DNA of 64,000 nt from Eucommia ulmoides (taxonomy: Eukaryota; Streptophyta; Magnoliopsida; Garryales; Eucommiaceae), in assembly GCA_016647705.1 (NCBI GenBank), contig CM028335.1, positions 14,777,905 through 14,841,904 of the forward strand. Direction: 5' to 3'. Both the position numbers and the translations under genes were made by a program. Positions 8,216 through 57,576 of the stretch are shown in pieces (positions within the stretch are counted from its first letter, which is position 1; every line of letters begins with the position of its first letter). Under the pieces are notes generated by a model. It ran no database searches, was not told the DNA's origin, and was given only the letters and a program-made list of their open reading frames with translations.

Positions 8216-8496
8216 ATTTAAAAGTAAAAATACAGAAGGCTATTTTTTATTTTTAATTATAGAGTAGTAGTCTATATTTGTCAGGTACCAATACCATTAT
8301 ATTACTAATGTTAGCTATTGAATTTTAAAATATTCAAAAATGCATTTTTCAAATTCAAATTGTATGAAAAAATTAAATACATAATACAAAATATATTTAA
8401 AGAAATAATATACTATTTTTATCTTTCAAAATACTCATTTTAAATCATATGCATCACGCGTTGACACACCAAATTTTTCATAATTGTTATCCGACG

Positions 8497-11400
8497 ATGG
8501 CCGGTCTCATCGCCTATTTCTTGTTCTTCACATTTTCTATTGAATCATTTCAAATTTTCTCAACATGGGCTCTGGAGACCCGTTTGGATCCCGGTACGGC
8601 CCAATCGTTGCTGGACACGGCGAGGCAGCCGGAGTTCTTCGACTGGGTTAGAACCCTCCGCCGGCAAATCCACCAGTACCCTGAACTCGGCTTCGAGGAG
8701 CACCGTACAAGTCAACTCATCCGGTCCGAGCTCGACTCACTGGGCATCCCGTACAAATGGCCAGTGGCCAAGACCGGCGTCATCGCCTCTATCGGCTCCG
8801 GCGACGAACCCTATTTCGCTCTCCGCGCCGACATGGATGCTCTTCCCCTCCAGGTTCCCCCCCCCCCCCTTTCTCTATCTCTAAGATTCCGATTAGGCGG
8901 ACCCACAAAAATCGAAATTAAAATCTATGCTGAAAAACATTATTTGGGGTTTATTGATCCCCCAAATCAAGTGGGTTTTTTCAGTATAGAGCCATAGGAC
9001 TACAAATCAATTGATGTTCGTTAAAAGTTTTTCTAACAATCATCGTTGTTCCTCGTACTCATCGAAAACTGTCCGAATTCGATGTTCTTTCGACCTCAGG
9101 AACTCGTTGACTGGGAGTACCGGAGCAAGGTAGACGGCAAAATGCATGCCTGTGGCCATGACTCTCATGTAGCTATGCTTCTCGGTGCCGCCAAATTATT
9201 ACAAGCACTGAGACACAAATTTAAGGTAAATAAACCTGGTTTTTTCCGAATATTGTTTTTTTAAAGAAAAATATTGAATCCATGATCGTTGTCTTTCTCT
9301 CTCTCTCTTTGAATCCCTCAATCAGGGGACGGTGAAGTTGGTTTTTCAGCCCGGCGAAGAGGGTTATGCCGGAGCTTACCACATGTTGGAGGAGGGTGCT
9401 CTTGACAAGGTTAAGGCCGTGTTTGGATTACACGTTATGCCGACGTTGAAAACGGGTACGATCGCTTCCAGGCCGGGTCCGATTCTCGCCGGCGCCGGGC
9501 TGTTCACGGCTGTGATCAGAGGCAAAGGAGGCCACGCCGCCACTCCACACAAAGCTAGAGATCCGATTCTGGCTGCTTCGTTAGCTGTAGCTGCGCTACA
9601 GCAGATTATTTCTCGGGAGACTGATCCTCTTGAATCTGGAGTAATGTTTCTCATCCCACTTGTTCTCTTATATTTTTTGGGAACATTGTTTGGATGTTTC
9701 AAAAACCCTGTTATGGAGGCTTCAAATCAGTTGATTTGGCTTTTGAAACTGCGGATTTGACATCTCTTAAGAGTCCACCATAATGGTTTTTTGTTCCAAA
9801 ATTTTTAGAACAAATTTATGAGAGCAGAACAAAATGGTTTTCAAATTTTTGTTTTTTGTTTTGTTTTGATAAATTTTGATAGGTACCCAGTTTGGAAAAC
9901 CCAAAAAAAGATTTATTGAAAGTTTATACGCATGGTAGCTTTGCGGCACTAGTTTTTAACCAAGCACGATGAACAATTGTGCAAATCAGTAGTTTCTTTC
10001 GTACAAGATTGAATTACTATTGGGCAAGTGTCGTTAACAGGGTAAAACTGAAAAAAATATATGGGATGATCTAATAGTGCTTTTTTGCTACTATACTGAA
10101 AAAGAAAAAATTATTAAAAATTATTAAAAAATGAAAAAATGTAAAAGGATAATTTTGCCCTAAAAAATCTGTTAGTTTGGATGGATTTTTTGATAGAAAG
10201 ACCAAATAAAAACGTACTGATATATAGAGGGTTTAAAATGAAACACTTAAACGGAGAGGGACCATTTAAAAATGTATTAATAGTTAGAGGGAATAGTTAG
10301 AGGGTTTAAAATGTACTTTTCTCTTCTTTAAATTGAAAAAAAGAAAATTTATAGGCCCAAGCTTGGGCTTGATATTTTTGGTAGGGCCGAACTTGAGAAT
10401 GAAAGTAGAGTCCGATCATATGGGCGGGGCGAGCTAGGTCCTTGTATTTTTTTGTAATACCTTAGCTAAAGCCTGGCCCGAGCCCTGCCCGGCTCGGTCC
10501 ATGACCACCCCTAGCCTTTAGTGTTTATGTTTTCATATTTCTATTATATTTTAAAATTTAAAAAAAAAAAAAAAAAGCCAAAAAATTAGGAATAATTTTA
10601 TATTTTTTTTAACAAAATTTACTCTAAAATCTGAGAGCAGAACATAAACATGTTTTTTTTGGGGTTCATATTTCTACCTGGAGAGCAAAAACAAATATCT
10701 AGAATAGAAACACAAAGGAGGCAAAATTTGTTCTATGCCACATTACAACTTTGCCCCTCCATAGATGCATTAAAAATGTATGCAGGATAAATTGTCTTTT
10801 ACTTCTCTCCTTTGGCCATTATCATTTTTCCCTTCTACTATACTTTGCCTACTTCTATTTTAAAATTAATATTTTTTAATTTTTTTCATTCAATTTTTTT
10901 ATAAAATAGACGAAATTGTCCTTTTATATTAATTTTAATTTTTAATTTTTTATAAAAATGACACAGGTAGTTACAGTTGGCTACATAGAGGGCGGCAGAG
11001 CTCCAAATGTTATCCCGGATAGTGTTAAATTCGGGGGAACATTCAGAAGCCTCAGTTCTCAAGGATTAGCATTCATCCAACACAGGATCAAAGAGGTACT
11101 ATTATTATAGCCAACCCTATTTTTATTTTTGCTAATTTTAGACCTGCCGATCTAGAAAAAAATATATCATTATATTTTTTTAATATGAATATTTCGATAT
11201 TATAATTTTGATTCTTGATCTATATATTACAGAAAACATAGAGCATTCTTTAAAGGATAACATTTTTTTTAAGAGATTTACTTAAAATTTATATAAATTA
11301 GAAGAAGAGTATATAAAATTTTAAAGATTTTAATTGATTTTTCCTAAAAATAAAAAGGTGAAAATGTATATTTTCAAAAAATTAGGAGTATTAGTTCATA

Positions 11401-12160
11401 GAAGATCTAGGGTAAGAATATTAATAGTGAAAAATGAGATTTTATTTATTGATTTGATAGGAATAAAGAGAGTGAAGAGATGTTTTATTTTGATTTGTGG
11501 TTCATTCGGCTTCCAATTTTAATATATAATATATGATATGATTATTATAGCTAATCCTTATTTTTATTTTTTATTATTTCAAAGAAAATAATATTTATTG
11601 AATTTATCGGATTAGTCTTGAAATTTTTGTTCATAATTAATAAATAAATTATTCGTAATAATTAAAAAATAAATTGTAAATAAATTAATAAAGATTTTTA
11701 TTTTGGGTTTGTTCTTCCACATATTTACAGTAATAGCTTCAAATTCCAAATTCTCTCCTACCAGATCATAGAGATGCAAGCGGCGGTTCACCAGTGCACC
11801 GCCGAAGTAAGCTTCATGGCGGAGATGCCGCTGCCTTTTCCTGTGACGATCAACGACGAAGCTCTTTACGAACATGGGAAGAGAGTAGCGGAGGTCTTGG
11901 TCGGGGAGTCCAACGTGGGGCTTTTCGAGGTGACCATGGGATCGGAGGATTTCAGCTTCTTTTCTCAGAGGATGCCGGCGGCAATGTTTGTGATCGGAAC
12001 AAAGAACGATACCTTCAAATCCGATGAACCGTTGCACTCCCCGTACTTCTTTATCGATGAGGAGGCTCTTCCGGTGGGGGCGGCGTTCCATGCCGCTGTG
12101 GCGGTGTCTTATTTAGGTGCCGGAGGTGAGTATGGGTATGTTGATGATAAGGAACTTTGA
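8497..12160 (+). CDS. ILR1: IAA-amino acid hydrolase ILR1-like (M20 amidohydrolase), five exons
   Basis: Exons 8497-8853, 9100-9225, 9326-9640, 10967-11095 and 11765-12160 join in phase with GT-AG introns into 440 residues, the usual family length. The enzyme releases free auxin from IAA-amino acid conjugates, in this family inside the endoplasmic reticulum. Residues 1-25 form a hydrophobic signal peptide; LRADMDALP lies near 109-117. The metal ligands expected for the family are all visible: Cys137 and His139 in HACGHDSH, Glu173 in GEEG, His197 in GLHVMP and His400 in PLHSPYF. The C-terminus ends DDKEL, a KDEL-like retrieval signal. Blocks such as [20 protein letters not shown] and [11 protein letters not shown] fit the ILR1 subgroup better than IAR3. 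The in-frame ATG at 8449 would add 16 polar residues before the signal peptide, so 8497 is preferred. The gene looks intact; intron 3 (1326 bp) holds repeat debris. Confidence 0.93.
10360..10516. repeat. Transposon fragment in intron 3 of the hydrolase gene
   Basis: A GC-rich island with alternating GGCCCGAGCC / GGGCTTGG-like words ends in CCATGACCACCCCTAG. Sequence of this kind is common at ends of short plant hAT-like elements (TAGGGGTGG in reverse complement). The opposite end and a TSD were not found, so it is probably a truncated copy. Confidence 0.4.
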
Positions 12161-37704: not shown

Positions 37705-38750
37705 ATGTTAAAAGTGCGTTTTTAAATGGTTTTATATCCATAGAAGTTTATGTTGAACAACCTCCTGGTTTTGAAGATGAAAAATTTTCAAATCATGTTT
37801 TTAAACTTTCTAAAGCACTTTACGGTTTCAAACAAATGCCTAGAGCTTGATATGAGAGGTTAAGTGGATTTCTTCTAGAAAAGGGTTTTAAATGTGGTTT
37901 AAGCGATATAACTCTATTTATTAAACAAGCTGAAAATAACATCTTATTAGTGCAAATCTATGTTGCCAACATTATTTTTGATGCTACTAATGAGATCTTG
38001 TGCCAAGAGTTTGCTAAGCTTATGCAAGAAGAATTCGAGATGAGTATGATGGGAGAACTAATATTCTTTCTCGAATTGTTAATTAAGCAAACAAAAGACA
38101 GAATATTTATAAATCAAATAAAGCATACCAATGACCTAATAAAAAAATACGAAATGGAAAACTCAAAGATATACAATACACCGAAGAGCACTTCAACCAA
38201 ATTGGATGCCACTAAAATGGTAAGAAGGTAAATGAGAGAGAATATTGAGATATGATTGGTAGTATTCTTTATCTTACGACAAGAAGACCCGATATCATGT
38301 TTGATGTTTGTCTATGTGCTCGTTTTGAATCTTGTCCTAAGGAATCACAGTTAATTGCCGTTAAATATATATTTCGATATTTGCTTGGTACATGTGATTT
38401 AGGTTTATGGTATCCTAAGAAAGAATGTTTTGATATGCTTAGCTATTCTGACGCTGATTTTGCCGGTTGCAAAGTCGAGCGTAGAAGCACAAGTGGTACT
38501 TGTCATTTTTTAGGACACACGTTCGTTTTTAGGTCAAGCGAGAAACAAAATTCGGTTACATTATCCATTGCTGAAGCCAAAAGGGCGATATCACATTGGA
38601 ATTTATTGACACTAATAATCAACTAGCCGATATCTTCACTAAACCTCTTAGGGAAGAAATTTTTTCAAAAATATTATGTGGTTTAGGATTTCAAAACCAT
38701 ATTCTTCAAAGTGATAAAAAATCTAATTTTGATAACTTGAATCCTTAAGG
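37705..38750 (+). pseudogene. Copia pol part 2: rest of RT and RNase H
   Basis: The frame resumes as KSAFLNGFISIEVYVEQPPG, then FKLSKALYGFKQMPRAxYERL with a stop for Trp, then a degenerate catalytic box (QIYVANIIF where YVDD is expected), then GELIFFLELLIKQ. At 38252-38626 is the RNase H part: MIGSILYLTTRRPDIMFDVC, SYSDADFAGCKVERRSTSGT and NSVTLSIAEAKRAIS. The loss of the DD pair and the scattered stops make it inactive. Confidence 0.88.
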
Positions 38751-49430: not shown

Positions 49431-50061
49431 ATTTTGTTGTGGAGCACCGGGAATCGTTTATTGTCTAATAAACGTTCACTTAAAATTCTTTTTTTTTTTT
49501 TGTAAATCCCTCTTGATTTTTATAAATGTTGTATTATAGTTTTGATAATTTTATTGAATTTTAAGTAAATATAGGGGTAAAAAGATTTGTTCTAAATACT
49601 TATGAGAGTGTGAGTGCAAGAACAAATTTGGTAAAAAGTAGCTTCTTATAGCTACAAAAAGAGGAATAAGAGTAGAAAATGATGAAAATTAATGGAATCA
49701 AAATTTTTTATTGGACCAAATTTAAGCCGAATTAGAACACAAAGGATCAAATGTGCCACCTCTAAAAAATTTCAATGACTATTTAGAAATCCACCCAAAT
49801 TTAAAGAAAAAAATGACTAAAATACCCTTGTACCAACGGAATTCATCCAATTTCTTTAACAAAAAATTCAGTTAGACTAGATTGAAACATAAATGGTACT
49901 TGAAGGACCTAATGTGCAACTTTCCAAATCTTATGGACCACATAAACACCACTCCAAACTTTAGGGGCATAAAAAGCAATTTCCCCTTCTATTTATCTTA
50001 TCTTTTACAAACAAAAGTTAACTTTTGTAAACAAGTGTTTTCCATTTCTTCTGGTTAATTA
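49431..50061. other. Intergenic DNA, no gene seen
   Basis: AT-rich sequence with phrases such as ACTTTAGGGGCATAAAAAGC (49960-49980) that resemble ends of small plant DNA transposons. No boundaries could be set. Confidence 0.4.
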
Positions 50062-50633
50062 GGGGTTTTGACACTTTATACCCCTAAAGTTTGACCAAAT
50101 TTTGACTGGTCCCATGACCTAAATTTGAACATATAATACCTTTAACTTTACTAATTATCCCCATTACAATCCATATCATTATTTCCATTACATTTTTGGA
50201 TGAAAACCCCCTGTGCATGCAACTATTTAAAAAAAAAAAACAATTTATGGGCGTTTACAACCTCCTTTTTCCTACCCTCCCATTCCTATTCCCATCCAAA
50301 TACTAGAAATATACATAAACATATAAACATACCATAGTTTTAATTTGAGCATATGACACCTTGAATTTCTTCAACTTTTGTATCTTAAAAATAGTTAGGT
50401 ACATGGGATGTGACTGTTTGCACTCAGTCTAGTCGAATTTTAGATTTCTTTCTTATTGACTTCCAATTCTTTCTCATTGCCTATCTAAAAATTGTAATAG
50501 GCTGATTGATTTGAACGAGATTTGGCTGATTACAAAACTTGAAGAAATTCAGGGTGTGATGTGCTCAATTAAAACAATGGGGAGCAAAGGGAAATAATGG
50601 TTAAACTTTAGTGGTCTAAAATGTCAAAATTCC
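50062..50633. mobile_element. Probable Mutator-like MITE
   Basis: The left end GGGGTTTTGACACTTTA, then CCCCTAAAGTTTGACC, is matched in inverted form by GGTTAAACTTTAGTGG, then TGTCAAAATTCC, at the right end. Flanking 9-mers GGTTAATTA and TATTAATTA agree at 7 of 9 positions. No coding sequence lies inside. Confidence 0.55.
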
Positions 50634-50979
50634 TATTAATTAAGCCTCTTCACCCTAGAAAGTTTACCTCTAAGGTCACATAATTTAACTGAAACAAGTA
50701 TTTGGATGAAAATCAGTATTATTTAACAGCTAAGATTGGCACAAACACTATTTATACATGTAGAAAAGTTAATGATGGGCTTAATTGGGAACAATTAATG
50801 TATGGGGATCAATTTAAAATATGTTTTAGATATTGAGGGTATTTAATGTAATTTTCCTTTTGTCAGGGTCTAGACTCACATTTCTGTTGATGAAATTAGA
50901 CAAACCCTTTTCCGCTTGGCTTAATCTTTCCTTCCCCAGTACGAGAGAGAGAGAGAGAGAGAGAGAGCTGAGGAGGGAG

Positions 50980-51168
50980 ATGTTTTTGTGGTCTTACCCT
51001 CCGACGCGGAAGCAAGTGGCCGTAACGGTAGGCGGTTTTGTCACCGGCGCAACACTATTCGCCGTCGGCGCGCACCTTTCCTTCGCCAACATTGCCCCTC
51101 AGCAGGCTCGCACCAAAGCTCGCAGCGACCTCATCAGAGAACGCCTCCGGAAGCTTCTCGGTGATTGA
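50980..51168 (+). CDS. Small single-pass membrane protein, unknown function (62 residues)
   Basis: The start codon follows a (GA)n leader at 50944-50967. The product begins MFLWSYPPTRKQVAVTVGG. A hydrophobic segment at about residues 13-34 (VAVTVGG to AHLSF) forms one predicted membrane span, followed by a basic tail (RTKARSDLIRERLRKLLGD). The short aromatic start, YPPTRKQ, single span and arginine-rich end are a pattern I associate with small conserved plant proteins of unknown function. Composition is GC-rich (many GCC/CGC codons) against an AT-rich background, which supports real coding. An upstream in-frame extension to 50833 runs through the GA repeat as Glu-Arg repeats and is judged untranslated leader. 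Confidence 0.7.
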   Translation: MFLWSYPPTRKQVAVTVGGFVTGATLFAVGAHLSFANIAPQQARTKARSDLIRERLRKLLGD

Positions 51169-52390
51169 CGCACCGTTGACCGGAATTTATACTAATACTT
51201 CTCTCATTTTACTAGGTACGAACACTTATACTTCATCTAATTACTTCAATTGCATCTACAAATTGTTACGAGTTTGCAAATTGAAGCCCATCTTTGGGGC
51301 TGTTAATGTGATTTCTGTCTTCATCAATCGCTCAAATTAGGGTTTTGTTTGTGGAATTTTGTCAATTTTCATTCGCTTTTTTCCAGTTCATTATTTAAGA
51401 AGTAATTCATTGTTCTGCATTTTTATGTTATCATATCTAGGATGATCAACGTATAGATGTTAATGAGATCAACAAAGCTAACCGATCCGTTACTCTGCTA
51501 GCAGCAGTGGCGGACGCAGGATAACTCAAGGTGGGCGAACATAAATGTAGGGGTAGAAATTGAATTTTTTTAAAGACCAGGGGGGAGAATATATATAAAT
51601 TTCACTCAACTATATGTAATATACCCAACCCTCCCATTTAGATGATTCGTGGATGATCGCATCCTGATTACGCCAAATTTTCGTGTTCGACAAAAGTTTT
51701 TTTTTTAGAAGAAGTGCAACAAGAAAGAAAACAAATTTCTTTTCCGTAACCCCCGGGGAAAATTTCGCACTATTACGGATATGAAAATAATGGGAAAACC
51801 GGATTCAATTGTCATCTGCCCCTATCTAAAATAGGTTAATCGAATTCTGGCAACTTTATGCAAGGCAAAGTTTGATTTTTTGGGGGCGATAGTGGAAAAG
51901 TTAACATGGTAGAATGGAAAGAATTAGGGGTAGGGAGGACGGGGAATGAATGGAAATATCAAAAAGTTGGAAGAAGAAGGGACTCTATGGGTTGTATTGA
52001 TAGAAAAAACTTTTCATCGAAACTTCAGAACGAATGAAGGATAAACATATTTACGTACATCCCATAGGGGCTATAAGTGGAGATACCGTTGTTTTGGGTA
52101 CAAAAGTTTAAAAGTGGAAAATGCCCTACCTTTGTGTGTGCTTGGTAATTTTTTTTTTTTTTGGGGGGGGGGGGGGTTCTTCCCCGGTCTACATAGTTTT
52201 GCGAAGTTAGACTACGTGTATAACCTTGGCAAATAACTTGCTTCCCAATCATCTAACGAACCTGCATAACTTTTAGTCTTTTCATCCACGAGTTTACCTA
52301 ACCAACTGCTAATATAACCTCATAGGCTTACATCTTTTTGCCCTTGAGAATTTTTTTTCTTCACCTAACTCCTAGGGTTTTTTTCCTATT
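51169..52390. other. 3' flank and transposon fragments, no gene seen
   Basis: At 51506-51525 the phrase CAGTGGCGGACGCAGGA resembles the end of a widespread plant DNA element; no partner end was found. At 52150-52176 a T run is followed directly by about 14 G residues, a strong homopolymer junction. No coding sequence is supported. Confidence 0.45.
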
Positions 52391-52940
52391 CAATCTTACA
52401 CTAATATAACAAAGTGAATCGTCTCTTCCAAAGGCCATTGTAAAAACCAACAATAAGAAAACAAATGATAAACAAAATAGAGGGAGAACCAAATTCTTTC
52501 CATTCGACCATGTTAACTTTTCTCTTCAATTTACTTCTTCTATTTCTCTCTCAACTCTCCCAGTCTCTCTGTCTCTCTCTCTTTATTAACTGTATGGGCA
52601 ACGCCTGTAACAACCGTTACACCTCTCTGTAATGGAAGTAACGGCCGTTACAAGCCCGTATCAATCTTACACCAATATAACAAAGTGAATCGTCTCTTCC
52701 AAAGGCCATTGTAAAAACCAACAATAAGAAAACAAATGATAAACAAAATAGAGGGAGAACCAAATTCTTTCCATTCAACCATGTTAACTTTTCTCTCCAA
52801 TTTACTTCTTCTATTTCTCTCTCTTAGCTCTCCTAGTCTCTCTGTCTCTCTCTCTCTATTAGCTGTATGGGCAACGCCTGTAACAACCGTTACACCTCTC
52901 TGTAATGGCAGTAACAGCCGTTACAAGCCCGTATCAGTCC
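52391..52940. repeat. Tandem duplication, 271-bp period, two copies
   Basis: The block starting CAATCTTACACTAATATAAC at 52391 recurs almost unchanged at 52662. Each copy includes a CT-rich microsatellite and ends with GTAACAACCGTTAC and GTAACGGCCGTTAC-type palindromes. Confidence 0.88.
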
Positions 52941-53518
52941 GATACAATGTGAATCGTCCCCAGACTTGAGTATCGGCCTTGTAACGGTATTGGGGGGCCA
53001 ATATCCGGTACGTTTCGGCCGTTACGTAACGTAACGGCCGATACTTTGAACTATGTAACTGAGTCAAATATGAGAAAATGATCTGATGATCTGCCACGTG
53101 AAAGCCAAATCAGATTCGTGGTCATCGTGGATGTTAAGATCATTGAATAACATAGAATTAAAAGTAAGAGAAAAGGAGACTAAGATTTATTATTGTAAAT
53201 AATGAATGCAAAGTTACAAAAGAAAAACTTAGGAAATATAACCGGTATATGCATATAATGAAAAGCCGTAATAGAGAGTAAAAGAATACTACATAAATAT
53301 TATAACTCCTAACACTCAAAAGATAACGAGCCAGTCTGATCTTTCAATTTATTTTGGGAGAGGCCCTCATTTTTCGTGGATTGAGCATGGTGTATGAGAT
53401 TAATAGGAAAAGAGTTAAATGGCGTTTGGATTCAGGTAATTGGAAACAACCTAAAAATCTAAAACTTTACATACATTTCCAACTCGAAGGTTTATATTCC
53501 ATGATACGAAACACCTAT
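52941..53518. other. Palindrome-rich tail and intergenic DNA
   Basis: At 52975-53050 are dense GTAACGG / CCGTTAC inverted words, including CGGCCGTTACGTAACGTAACGGCCG (given here as words CGGCCGTTAC and GTAACGGCCG around an ACGT centre). This resembles the subterminal part of a DNA transposon. No gene is seen up to 53518. Confidence 0.45.
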
Positions 53519-53528
53519 TAACGTTCTA

Positions 53529-55151
53529 GGGTTTATACATCTCACCTCCTATATCATTTTTCACTAAACTAGATACTCCCCCTGTCATTTTGGTCAATGA
53601 CCACTTACCTCTATTATGACATAAATGTCCTTCTGCTATTTTAAAAAATTATATTTTTATTTTTATAAAAATTCATTAACACCCCCTTATTTTTAAACTT
53701 ATAATTTTTACTCTTAATTTTTTAAATAATTATATTTACCTCCTACCCTACCGCACCTTCTCACTGCCACCGCCCACTGTCACTGCCCACCACCCTAACT
53801 TGTTGAATGACATTTATACCCTTTAAATATTTTATTAAAGGCTATTTTAACACTACTAGAAACTTAGAGGGCCATAAGTGTATTTTCAATCTTTTCGCAT
53901 CATCTTCTTCCTTTATTTATTTATTTATTTTTTGTTCAAGTCCCACTCCCAGTTCACTCGATTTAGTTAAAGCAAATCAATGGAGTGCCAGTCCAAAATC
54001 GCCAACTCGGGCGTTATAATTTCGGTCGATTAAGACGTTTTTCGATTTGATATCGCGGTGAATCACCGGTGGGACCAAGGAATGGAGGGTATCGATGGCC
54101 TTCGCCGCTTGAAGGGCGAGTCGTATCCTTGGGCCCCAATTGGGAGGCCGAGAAATAGAGTGGAAAACGTCGAAGAGTGTGCCGTGCTCATGAACTCCAC
54201 GACCAGGAGGCAATTGAAAGGGTCGTTGGTGAAGCCGACGAGATTGACCAGCCAGGGACTGTGGAGCTTGGACAATACGTCGATCTCGTTACTTCGTTGA
54301 GGCTCTCGGGCGTGAAGGAGAAGGCCGATCTCGTTACTTCGTTGAGGCTGTCGGGCGTGAAGGAGAAGGCGACGGCTGCAGCAGGGGGGGACGCCAAGGG
54401 AAGAGCGGGAGTTGCGAGATGACCTCTTCACGGCGACCAAACATCCCCTGCGGAGGACGCCCTTGTAGACGACGTTGTGGCTTCCTTTGCATAGGAGCTT
54501 CTAGTCGGAAAAGCCATTGGTGGCGGCTTCGAGGTCACTGTACTGAAATTCCTGAATTTTGATGGGTTTTTCCTTATCGTTTTCGGGTCTGTAAGGAGTT
54601 CTAGCAGAGGACGACGATTGGGAAATTGAATTGGAGATCGAAACGGCGGATTTAGCTTTACATGACAGATAACCCATTAAATTTGGAAAGAAATTGTAAA
54701 AGGAAATCAAGATATAAAAGGGAAGGAGCTTTTGAGAGGATTGCAGTTTCGCGAAGAAGATGATGTGAAAAGATAGAAAATACACTTATGGCCCTCTAAG
54801 TTTCTAATAGTGTTAAAATAGCCTGTAATAAAATATTTAAAGAGTATAAATGTCATTCAACAAGTTAGGGTGGTGGGCAATGGCCTGGGTGGCGGCGGCG
54901 AGAGTGTTTGGTAAGGTAGAAGGTAAATATAATTATTTAAAAAATTAAGAGTAAAAATTATAAGTTTAAAAATAAGGGGGTGTTAATGAATTTTTATAAA
55001 AAAAAAAAATATAGTAGAAGGGCATTTATGTTATAATGGAGGTAAGTGGTCATTGACCAAAATGACAAGGGGGCTGACTGGTATTTATAAAATGACAGGG
55101 GAGGTATTTGGTTTAGTGCAAAATGACAGAGGAGGTGAGTAGTATGAACCC
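53529..55151. mobile_element. Pack-MULE: Mutator-like element carrying a kinase gene fragment
   Basis: Ends GGGTTTATAC and GTATGAACCC are inverted. Inverted repeats of about 360-376 bp (53529-53887 and 54776-55151) enclose an 890-bp centre derived from a kinase gene. Perfect 10-bp direct repeats TAACGTTCTA flank it (53519-53528 and 55152-55161), the size range of Mutator-like insertions. The right arm carries one extra internal unit (two AAAATGACAGGGGAGG-like copies). No transposase is encoded, so it is non-autonomous. Confidence 0.92.
53960..54785 (-). pseudogene. Captured receptor-like cytoplasmic kinase fragment
   Basis: On the minus strand the pieces read MGYLSCKAKSAVSISNSISQ (from about 54685), then IQEFQYSDLEAATNGFSD (54550), then VYKGVLRRG, LVAVKRSSRNS with the ATP-anchoring lysine of VAVK (about 54440), then NEIDVLSKLHSPWLVNLVGF (54270), and finally AKAIDTLHSLVPPVIHRDIK, with the catalytic HRD and then DFGLAL (54070-53980). 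This resembles the plant serine/threonine-protein kinase-like family around At1g28390. The order follows a normal kinase N-lobe to DFG, but it stops after DFG, has a 46-bp tandem duplication near 54290-54370, a stop after GFSD and frameshifts. It lies wholly between the inverted repeats of the Mutator-like element. Confidence 0.85.
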
Positions 55152-55269
55152 TAACGTTCTAATTCATTGCCTAGATGAGATTCCTGCGACTTTACAACCT
55201 CCAATTTTGTATCAATTTTGCATCCTCCAGCAATTAGATAGAGTCTTAAAAGCTTGAATTATTCTTTTT

Positions 55270-55449
55270 CAGATTTATTTGATTGCTCGTTCGATTGGAA
55301 TTTGGATTTTTTTTCAGATTTATTTGATTGCTCGTTCGATTGGAATTTGGATTTTTTTTCAGATTTATTTGATTGCTCGTTCTATTGGAATTTGGATTTT
55401 TTTTCAGATTTATTTGATTGCTCGTTCTATTGGAATTTGGATGCCCAAT
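55270..55449. repeat. 45-bp tandem repeat, four copies
   Basis: Units of 45 bp starting CAGATTTATTTGATTGCTCG repeat four times with a C/T difference separating copies 1-2 from 3-4. The array ends within a few bases of the ATG used for the UPF0496 gene. Each unit contains a T-rich tract followed by CAG, as in a 3' splice site. Confidence 0.92.
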
Positions 55450-56724
55450 GGTGCAACCCGCATCAAACCTTTCTCCGGAATTGAACAATAACATCAAATG
55501 CTTCAATCTTTTAAGTTTTTCTTCATCAACAGCAGCCCCAAATCGTTACACTTCCCCACAACAATCTGAAGGTGAAATTTTGATCCCACTGCTACATTTT
55601 GTATGTTATTTTATTTTTATTTTCCTTGTTTTTCAACGATTTTGTACAATCGTGCAGGAATTGGTGGTACTTCAACCGATGGTACTACGCCCAAGTCAAG
55701 TGCTCAACCGTCTCCAAACATCAATCCAACTCTCGAATACGACCGTGAACTTCTAGGAAATTCATACACCGAGGTATGGAACAAGATTCATCACCCAAAT
55801 GGATCTATTTCACACGTAATTGACCCAAACGGGCCAAACCCAGAAGAGCATCAATTGCTCGATGAGGTTCTTCAACCAAACCGAGAAAGTGTTAAAATAG
55901 CACTCGAATATGCCAAGCCCAGCACCTTGATCCGACTTGTTTCGAAATACTTTGACCATAGTCAACACACCTCCGAGCTATGCCTCTCCCTCCAATCGAC
56001 CGTCCGCCAAGCCCGCTTAATCTACGCCCCCCTCCACGACCTCCTTGATATCCTCCCCTCTGACACCGACACCCTCACCCAATCCCAGTGCGACCGGGCC
56101 TTTGATCTCTTCCTTGAATTTGATGGCCTTGAGAACCCCTTCCCCTCCCCTGATTCTGGATTCCATGACATTCGCCAGTGTTTCTCCCAGCTTAGGCAGC
56201 AGCTCGATTGCCGCATCTCCCAATCCCAATCGAGGATCCGGATCATTCATGGGGCCACTGTTGGGTGTGCCGGTTGTCTGGTGGGGACCACCATCGCCGT
56301 GGCGATTTCCGCCGTTGCGATTGCGAGCCACGCCCTTGCAGCACTTGTCGCGGGCCCGTTTGTTCCCCTTTTTTTCGTTAGGCCTGCAAAGATTGTTAAG
56401 AGAGAGGAGGCCCATCGGGCCCAACTCAATGCCACTAAGAGGAGCGCCTATGTTGTACATAAGCACCTTGACACGATCAATAGTCTGGTGGACCGTTTGT
56501 GTACAGAGGTGGAGGGTGATAAGAGGTTGGTTCGGCTCGGGCTGGAGTGGGGTCGGGATCGGCACCATATACAGGAGGTTTTGAAGAGGCTTCGTAAGAA
56601 TCAGCCGAATTTTGTGAAGCAGCTCGTGGATCTTGAAGAACATTTGTGCTTGTGTTTTACGGCAATTAATCGAGCTAGATCAGATCTCCTCCGAGAGATT
56701 AATCTTCATCGAACTCATTCTTAG
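55448..56724 (+). CDS. UPF0496 protein (At3g19330-like), two exons
   Basis: Exons 55448-55571 and 55658-56724 join in phase through a GT-AG intron of 86 bp to give 396 residues. Residues 42-90 are a serine/proline-rich lead-in (GIGGTSTDG...NINPTLEYDRELLGNSY). A helical region follows with SVKIALEYAKPSTLIRLVSK and a conserved GLENPFPSPDSGFHDIRQCF. A long hydrophobic stretch at about 240-278 (ATVGCAGCLVGTTIAVAISA onward) gives one or two membrane spans, and the C-terminal half is a charged helix ending LLREINLHRTHS. This layout matches the plant UPF0496 family of unknown biochemical role. Exon 1 is the less certain part: it is short, starts right after the 45-bp array, and has weaker conservation. 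Codon use is GC-richer than flanks. Confidence 0.85.
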
Positions 56725-57576
56725 CGGGTACAACTCTGTCTCTCTGTTCTTGTTTCTTTTCAATTCGCTGCTTGTTCGTACATTGTTTAGGCGGTTCTTG
56801 CCATCTTTTTGGTGGCATTGATTGGGCACCGGCTTTTAAGTACTTTTGAATTAAAAAAAAAAAAATTGACCCCAAAATACTTCTAATTGAAGACAAAAAA
56901 TGTGTTTGTAATGTAAGCCATATAAACAATTTCTTAATCCAAATTTCATAAAGGGTTGAGAGTCCAAGTTCATCCATCTCTAAAATTATAAACATCTAAG
57001 AATTAGAAAAAAACGACTATTTTCACCCCTCAAAAATGTACGTTTACTCTCTTAATTTTTTTTAAAACGAAGAACACATGCTACTTTTTGTTTCTATTTT
57101 TTTTTTATTTAAAAACAAAATCAAACAGTGCCGAATCTGTTCCCAGAAAACTGTTTTTTATGTTCTGTTATGATATTTAAAAAATGAATTTCTGAGATGG
57201 AAGTGTTTGTTTTTGTTATTTGTATTTTTGGTTTCCGTCTGTTGCTGATCTGTCTTTTTTTTTTTTTTTTTTGTTTCAAGTTCGGTGATAACAGAAGCAG
57301 GATTGCAGGAATACTAACCTTAAGTATCAGTGAAAATCTGAGCAGTGGTCGTTCTCTTGATATATTCTCTCTCTCTCTCTCTAAAAGGATCTGTTTTATT
57401 CGGTGAATTCACAGTGGATATAAATAATGTCAAGAATTTTTGTTGTGCTGATTCAACTCTGTATAGTAATATTGATACTTTATACAAAAAAGATGATGAA
57501 AGCTAAATATACTTAAAAAAACTCATGTAAATAAGTACTTCGTTAATCAAACCTTCTTGGAGATGTTCACGCGCCT
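56725..57576. other. 3' flank of UPF0496 gene, no further gene
   Basis: AT-rich, with A and T runs (56852-56866, 57258-57272) and a (TC)n tract at 57366-57381. A leader-like stretch at 57190-57410 has no coding exon after it. Confidence 0.4.

Follow-up and report, generated by a model that had tools for sequence, protein, structure and literature searches.

A Multicopy Mutator-like Element of Eucommia ulmoides Carrying a Fragment of a Single-Exon Kinase Gene

A piece of kinase coding sequence lies between two long inverted arms in the genome of Eucommia ulmoides, and the locus raises the question of where this piece came from, how it reached its present position, and whether it still has a function. 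The window (the whole stretch of DNA that was analyzed, 64,000 nucleotides) contains the unit at positions 53519–55161. The account that is very strongly favored here is that of an ordinary multicopy Pack-MULE, in which a fragment was captured from a single-exon kinase gene, the reading frame was lost, the element spread in a burst that reached no fewer than 11 loci, and the copies have decayed as noncoding DNA. The genome searches used the assembly from which the window comes (947 Mb in 391 contigs). The features of the locus are presented in Table 1.

Table 1. Positions of the element, its internal features, and the adjacent gene in the window
Feature	Position	Strand	Remarks
Target-site duplication, left copy	53519..53528		TAACGTTCTA
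Terminal inverted repeat, left arm	53529..53911	+	outer end GGGTTTATAC
Nonkinase edge sequence between capture and arm	53912..53981	-	about 53916-53968 also in same-arm elements of C7 and C381
Captured kinase fragment, At3g51990-like (leader, ATG, and N-terminal part as far as DFGLAL)	53982..54756	-	from alignment to donor
Site of 1-base deletion relative to donor, in FMSNGT	54185..54186	-	9/9 aligned copies
45-bp tandem duplication	54281..54370	-	absent from other 8 aligned copies (C9b itself rearranged at the matching site)
Site of 4-base deletion relative to donor	54290..54291	-	9/9 aligned copies
TAG stop codon (CAG in donor)	54501..54503	-	absent from other 8 aligned copies
Former kinase start codon, ATG (MGYLSCK...)	54675..54677	-	from donor alignment
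CTTC shared by arm end and donor, a microhomology of 4 bp	54753..54756		5' capture edge
Terminal inverted repeat, right arm	54757..55151	+	outer end ATGAACCC; arm-like from about 54753
Target-site duplication, right copy	55152..55161		TAACGTTCTA
UPF0496/DUF677 gene, outside the element	55448..56724	+	predicted; exon limits by eye

Structure of the Element and Its Insertion Site

The two arms were compared by global alignment, which gave 340 matches, 31 mismatches, and 43 gap columns, or about 92% identity where aligned. A preliminary description of this DNA had proposed inverted arms of about 360 bp; the inverted arms are present and are slightly longer than proposed, at about 383 and 400 bp. 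The perfect 10-bp target-site duplication that it reported was recovered with 10 of 10 bases identical between the two copies. Target duplications of 9–11 bp and arms that are usually 100–500 bp long are given for Mutator-like elements (MULEs) in the relevant passages of PMC3310237, and both the duplication and the long arms of the window copy fall within these ranges. The G+C content of the captured stretch is 51%, compared with 33% for the window and 32–34% for the arms.

The inner part from 53982 to 54756 aligns with the donor kinase, and the remainder amounts to only about 70 bp. No transposase coding sequence was detected by Pfam in three of the 32 listed inner frames, where the matches at E < 0.001 were to kinases only and were accompanied by weak kinase-like fold matches. 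The kinase domain scored above the curated cutoff in one of the three frames and weakly in the second, and nothing was detected in the third. A search of the plasmid collection gave no match.

The predicted start of the UPF0496/DUF677 gene is located about 290 bp from the element, which lies upstream of it. One paralogue of this gene was detected in a DNA search that is blind to more diverged relatives (both candidates were scored); it is 82% identical and lies on the same strand at a distance of 103 kb. The target occurs once, as TAATGTTCTA, in the paralogous segment at C11:14.936 Mb. The joined flanks of the window element align with this segment without a break over the join, at 86.7% identity in 555 columns. 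The paralogous segment is thus a true empty site, and the element was therefore inserted after the segment had been duplicated; the alternative of a precise loss on the side of the paralogue is less likely.

The local segmental duplication pairs window positions 49613–57382 with segment L075 (G000:C11:14928500-14938400) at about 80–86% in the longer pieces. The stretch that separates the element from the DUF677 gene contains four repeats of a 45-bp unit (window 55261–55442, 98% identity), and one such unit is present in the region upstream of the paralogue. Elsewhere in the window, a reverse transcriptase fragment, presumably of the Copia type, is found at 37851–38231 (PF07727, E 4.5e-13). Frames of an M20-peptidase gene are located at 8401–12160, with PF01546 in the 9281–9757 frame; this gene is taken to resemble the IAA-amino-acid hydrolases.

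The stretch 53519–55161 is confirmed as a nonautonomous Mutator-like element, the mobility of which is seen from its copies, their target duplications, and the empty site. The earlier assignment to the Pack-MULEs, with a kinase fragment as the captured part, is likewise supported by the donor gene, the empty site, and the sibling copies. A chance origin is excluded by the 10 further capture loci, the target-site duplications of the siblings themselves, and the empty paralogous site.

The Captured Fragment and Its Donor Gene

The fragment in the window copy begins with a leader of about 80 bp ahead of the former start codon. The kinase pieces that had been assigned to the minus strand are all present (54756 to 53982), including the VAVKR, HRDIK, and DFGLAL motifs. 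The fragment finishes just past DFGLAL and its kinase domain is incomplete, in agreement with the proposed end after DFG. The domain is thus not intact, given this early end, the TAG codon, and the deletions shared with other copies. The tested similarity of the fragment is to At3g51990-like proteins only, and it is presumed to belong to the receptor-like cytoplasmic kinase class.

The duplication inside the fragment had been described as 46 bp in length; the duplication is real and its size is 45 bp, with two units (54281–54325 and 54326–54370) that are 98% identical. Both units bear the scar of the 4-base deletion. One extra C near the duplication is found in the window copy alone and may be the source of the earlier figure.

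The inner 840 bases of the element were used as the query in the assembly, and 21 matches were obtained from 19 candidates, all of which were scored. The arm-free locus on C9 among these matches is the donor, and the search for a parental locus that had been recommended earlier thus led to one intact single-exon kinase gene. The donor (G000:C9:23567921-23569327, minus strand) consists of one uninterrupted frame of 469 amino acids that starts with MGYLSCKAES and contains no intron. Its Pfam kinase domains have E values of 3.1e-37 (PF00069) and 1.1e-34. The donor and the window fragment are 85% identical by blastn over 787 columns. The best relatives of the donor are At3g51990-like kinases, with a protein of Cornus florida at the top of the best 120 of 3513 matches (77% over 99%). 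When the best 150 of 1194 candidates from a protein search of the assembly are considered, the C9 donor ranks first with 300.6 bits and 73% identity to the Telopea relative (P0004), and the runner-up nonelement locus scores 189.1 bits at 53% identity.

No arms were found in the 6 kb around the donor, where just two short and weak matches to arm regions were obtained (E 0.002 and 0.008). The similarity between donor and element extends from about 90 bp 5' of the donor ATG to CTCC just past DFGLAL and ends there on both sides. The edge sequence between the capture and the left arm was also considered as a part of the donor, and this was ruled out since the donor continues differently past CTCC.

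The absence of introns from the fragment, as first described, is correct, but since the donor is likewise free of introns, it gives no clue as to whether the origin was genomic or processed. This bears on the alternative that the fragment is a genomic pseudogene or a processed copy that came to lie between inverted repeats by chance, for which the missing introns, the stop, and the frame breaks would speak. The intron-less donor removes the first of these points, the same arms and the same edges surround captures at other loci, and the whole arm-to-arm unit is missing from the empty site. A processed copy is further contradicted by the end of the capture, which lies inside the coding sequence and not at a poly-A tail. 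An origin as a processed pseudogene is ruled out by the single-exon donor together with the arms and edges common to the copies, and the chance reading as a whole is almost certainly wrong.

Sibling Copies, Their Spread, and Their Decay

Further copies with the same arms had been suggested as a means of checking the element. The left arm gave at least 47 matches in the genome from 40 scored candidates of 2080 first-look candidates, and the arms therefore belong to a large repeat family. The kinase capture itself is present at 11 loci, the window and 10 others. Most of the capture is retained at nine of these, and C3 and C9c are remnants. Seven of the 11 are full length (the window, C4, C6a, C6b, C15, C17a, and C17b). 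The C9a locus appears as two match rows because of a hAT-like insert, which has an 8-bp repeat, and its arms are truncated; C9b appears as three match rows split by inserts. Both capture edges were aligned in eight further loci and the 3' edge only in the two remnants. The capture thus lies within an element, as first proposed, but it is not a one-off event at the window locus, since the copies form a multicopy family from one capture.

The insert in the C9a copy (L041, G000:C9:309600-313400) is roughly 560 bp long, is flanked by TCTACAAG, and was judged hAT-like by eye. Other contents were also observed between the same arms. The same-arm element at about 522–2276 of L012 (G000:C14:7771900-7774700) contains a different capture with an open frame of 231 amino acids that matches subtilase (PF00082, E 2e-6) and PA domains. 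The same-arm elements L015 (C16) and L016 (C28) share a further inner sequence in opposite orientation. Pfam was applied to one frame each of L012, L015, and L014, and only L012 gave a match (subtilase).

Target-site duplications were found for most of the full-length copies. The window, C6b, and C15 copies have perfect 10-bp duplications, the one at C15 being a low-complexity T run. The duplication of C4 matches at 9 of 9 positions (9 of 10 depending on the element end) and that of C17b at 9 of 10. The match for C17a lies in a TA repeat and is uninformative, and none was found for C6a, one of the seven full-length copies. Four of the six full-length copies outside the window therefore have target duplications of their own of 9–10 bp.

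The surroundings of the copies bear on a possible role of the window insertion as a promoter or 5' modifier of the DUF677 gene, by a route other than the kinase. The short distance to the predicted start and the existence of an insertion-free paralogue would fit such a role, and insertion at the 5' ends of genes is known from rice, as cited in a passage of PMC4858842. Upstream placement is not general, however, in three sibling neighborhoods: a glycosyltransferase-like frame has its 3' end just before the C15 copy, and a transporter-like frame lies upstream of the C4 copy (both frames labeled by eye). An effect of this kind on the DUF677 gene is rather unlikely.

The donor was aligned with nine copies, the pieces of C9a and C9b having been joined beforehand; both remnants stop short of the deletion sites. 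All nine copies differ from the donor by the 4-base deletion near NEID, the 1-base deletion in FMSNGT, and a leader gap of 11 bp. Past the capture, all nine copies and both remnants continue into one common edge sequence. The common deletions and common capture edges lead to a single capture, the frame of which was already broken when the element spread, and multiple independent captures are ruled out by the same observations. The deletions may already have been present in a duplicate gene ahead of the capture and not have arisen in the element.

Six match rows in C7 and C381 are limited to the edge sequence, of which they cover about 53 bases. They belong to rearranged same-arm pieces, namely L045 and L046 (C7 near 1.20 and 1.235 Mb, two pieces per site) and L047 and L048 (C381). 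No kinase match was detected at E 1e-6 in these elements. They may be ancestors from before the capture or, equally, deletion derivatives.

The Kimura two-parameter (K2P) distances between copies (0.084–0.162) are similar to those between copies and donor (0.083–0.143). Internal branches account for 3.6% of the length of the tree, with support of 29–76 at six nodes and 99 at one. The tree is nearly a star, which indicates that the copies spread in a burst. The two arms of one copy differ by 0.116 on average (range 0.087–0.140, seven copies). Arms of different copies among the same seven differ by means of 0.109, 0.116, and 0.112, with 0.109 and 0.116 for like arms, and this agreement also favors a burst. 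A molecular clock is unreliable here, since mutation is presumably driven by methylation, and the own-arm and between-copy distances are alike.

The substitutions found in single copies (151 in total, 20 in the leader and 131 in codons) were sorted by codon position. The coding singletons are distributed 42/39/50 (p = 0.49), and no coding constraint on the copies is detected from these counts. The 20 fixed coding differences between the donor and all copies are distributed 6/2/12 (p = 0.02), a skew that is expected if constraint acts on the donor only. A coding Pack-MULE that produces a truncated kinase-like protein under selection could draw on the window copy, which is open for 58 codons from the start codon, and on C6a, which matches the first 93 residues of the protein query without a stop. 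Both frame-breaking deletions are nevertheless found in each of the nine aligned copies, several copies have more stops, the first glycine of the glycine loop is lost, and the singletons have no codon-position bias. Conserved coding function is ruled out by the common frame damage and the flat codon-position counts, and a selected protein product is highly improbable.

The singleton transitions of the copies were also sorted by sequence context. They number 45/118 at CG, 17/53 at CHG, 37/193 at CHH, and 9/326 at A/T sites, and the excess at CG and CHG over CHH is significant (Fisher p = 0.0004). The corresponding values for the donor, which is an imperfect mutation control since it is under coding constraint, are 0/118, 0/53, 4/193, and 9/326. 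The A/T rate of the donor is above that of the copies; its nine A/T changes are probably C-to-T changes in the ancestor of the copies, in an alignment that has no outgroup to orient them. The CG and CHG excess is the pattern of methylated, silenced DNA, and methylation of the copies is suggested by it.

The same excess would fit a family that serves as a source of small RNA regulating the donor in trans, where transcripts started in an arm or reading through from outside would fold on their arms and be diced, and the kinase part would silence the C9 gene. The preliminary description had raised sense or antisense RNA directed at the parent kinase; such an action is possible, and the sequences are compatible with it. 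The window fragment is identical to the donor in 84 of 755 21-mers and in 59 of 752 24-mers, and the fold of a full-length transcript contains 349 (plus strand) or 343 (minus strand) arm-to-arm base pairs. Captures in maize are described in part of PMC13317346 as siRNA reservoirs that are able to silence their donors. The donor, however, has 0 of 171 CG/CHG singleton transitions compared with about 6.9 expected at the rate of the copies (P about 0.001, or 0.004 when scaled by branch length). It is therefore probably not methylated in the same lasting way, with the qualification that coding constraint also lowers this count. The divergence of 8–13% from the donor further erodes the matches, and regulation in trans is unlikely. 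It is very doubtful that the capture, amplified when it was still similar to its donor, was kept as a dispersed silencing template, where hairpin copies would supply small RNA to the only close At3g51990-like gene that was found in this plant and the expression of this gene would track copy number or activity.

Proposed Mechanism and Relation to Known Pack-MULEs

For the ordinary Pack-MULE, the 5' portion of an At3g51990-like kinase gene with a single exon would have been copied at the DNA level between the arms of a Mutator-like element. The capture may have occurred by a template switch, for which a microhomology of about 4 bp is present at one edge. The kinase frame was lost ahead of amplification, as the common deletions show. 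Transposase supplied in trans would then have driven the burst, which reached 11 or more loci, including the one 5' of the DUF677 gene of the window. Since the burst, the copies have decayed; no coding constraint is detectable in them, and their mutation pattern is that of putatively methylated DNA. The window insertion yields no kinase and, if transcribed, would at most feed small RNA.

Template switching at the DNA level is a model of capture put forward for animal Pack-TIRs in PMC8277862, and it is likewise a model there. The Pack-TIRs resemble the present family in their multicopy capture, the microhomology at one breakpoint, and the inserted sequence at the other, and differ in being animal elements. 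Joint mobilization of neighboring insertions is the alternative DNA-level model, presented in passages of PMC8903248. The Pack-TYPE elements formed in this manner also have host DNA flanked by arms that belong to one family. Because arms next to the donor are required by that model and none were found in the 6 kb around it, the model is less favored, although an excised precursor is possible.

The family is similar to the Pack-MULEs of rice, maize, Arabidopsis, and tomato in its long inverted arms, target-site duplications of 9–10 bp, multiple copies, and GC-rich host gene fragment that is mostly noncoding, and no difference in kind is seen. The amplification of one captured fragment is also found in the PM-ZIBP family of tomato, for which the relevant passages of PMC3310237 give 14 copies (13 with tandem arms and 1 with single arms) and outer-arm identities of 87–94% in four table rows. 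The present family has a single arm pair, unlike the mostly tandem arms of PM-ZIBP, and contains another captured gene.

What is unusual relative to the plant Pack-MULEs is the occurrence together, in a eudicot, of the donor, an empty paralogous site, and frame damage that predates amplification. The existing picture of gene capture is left unaltered by this case. Captured fragments of this type may be miscounted as kinase genes by gene annotators. The family provides a clean eudicot example of a Pack-MULE in which the donor, the capture edges, the damage before amplification, the burst, the empty site, and the decay can be read from one genome.
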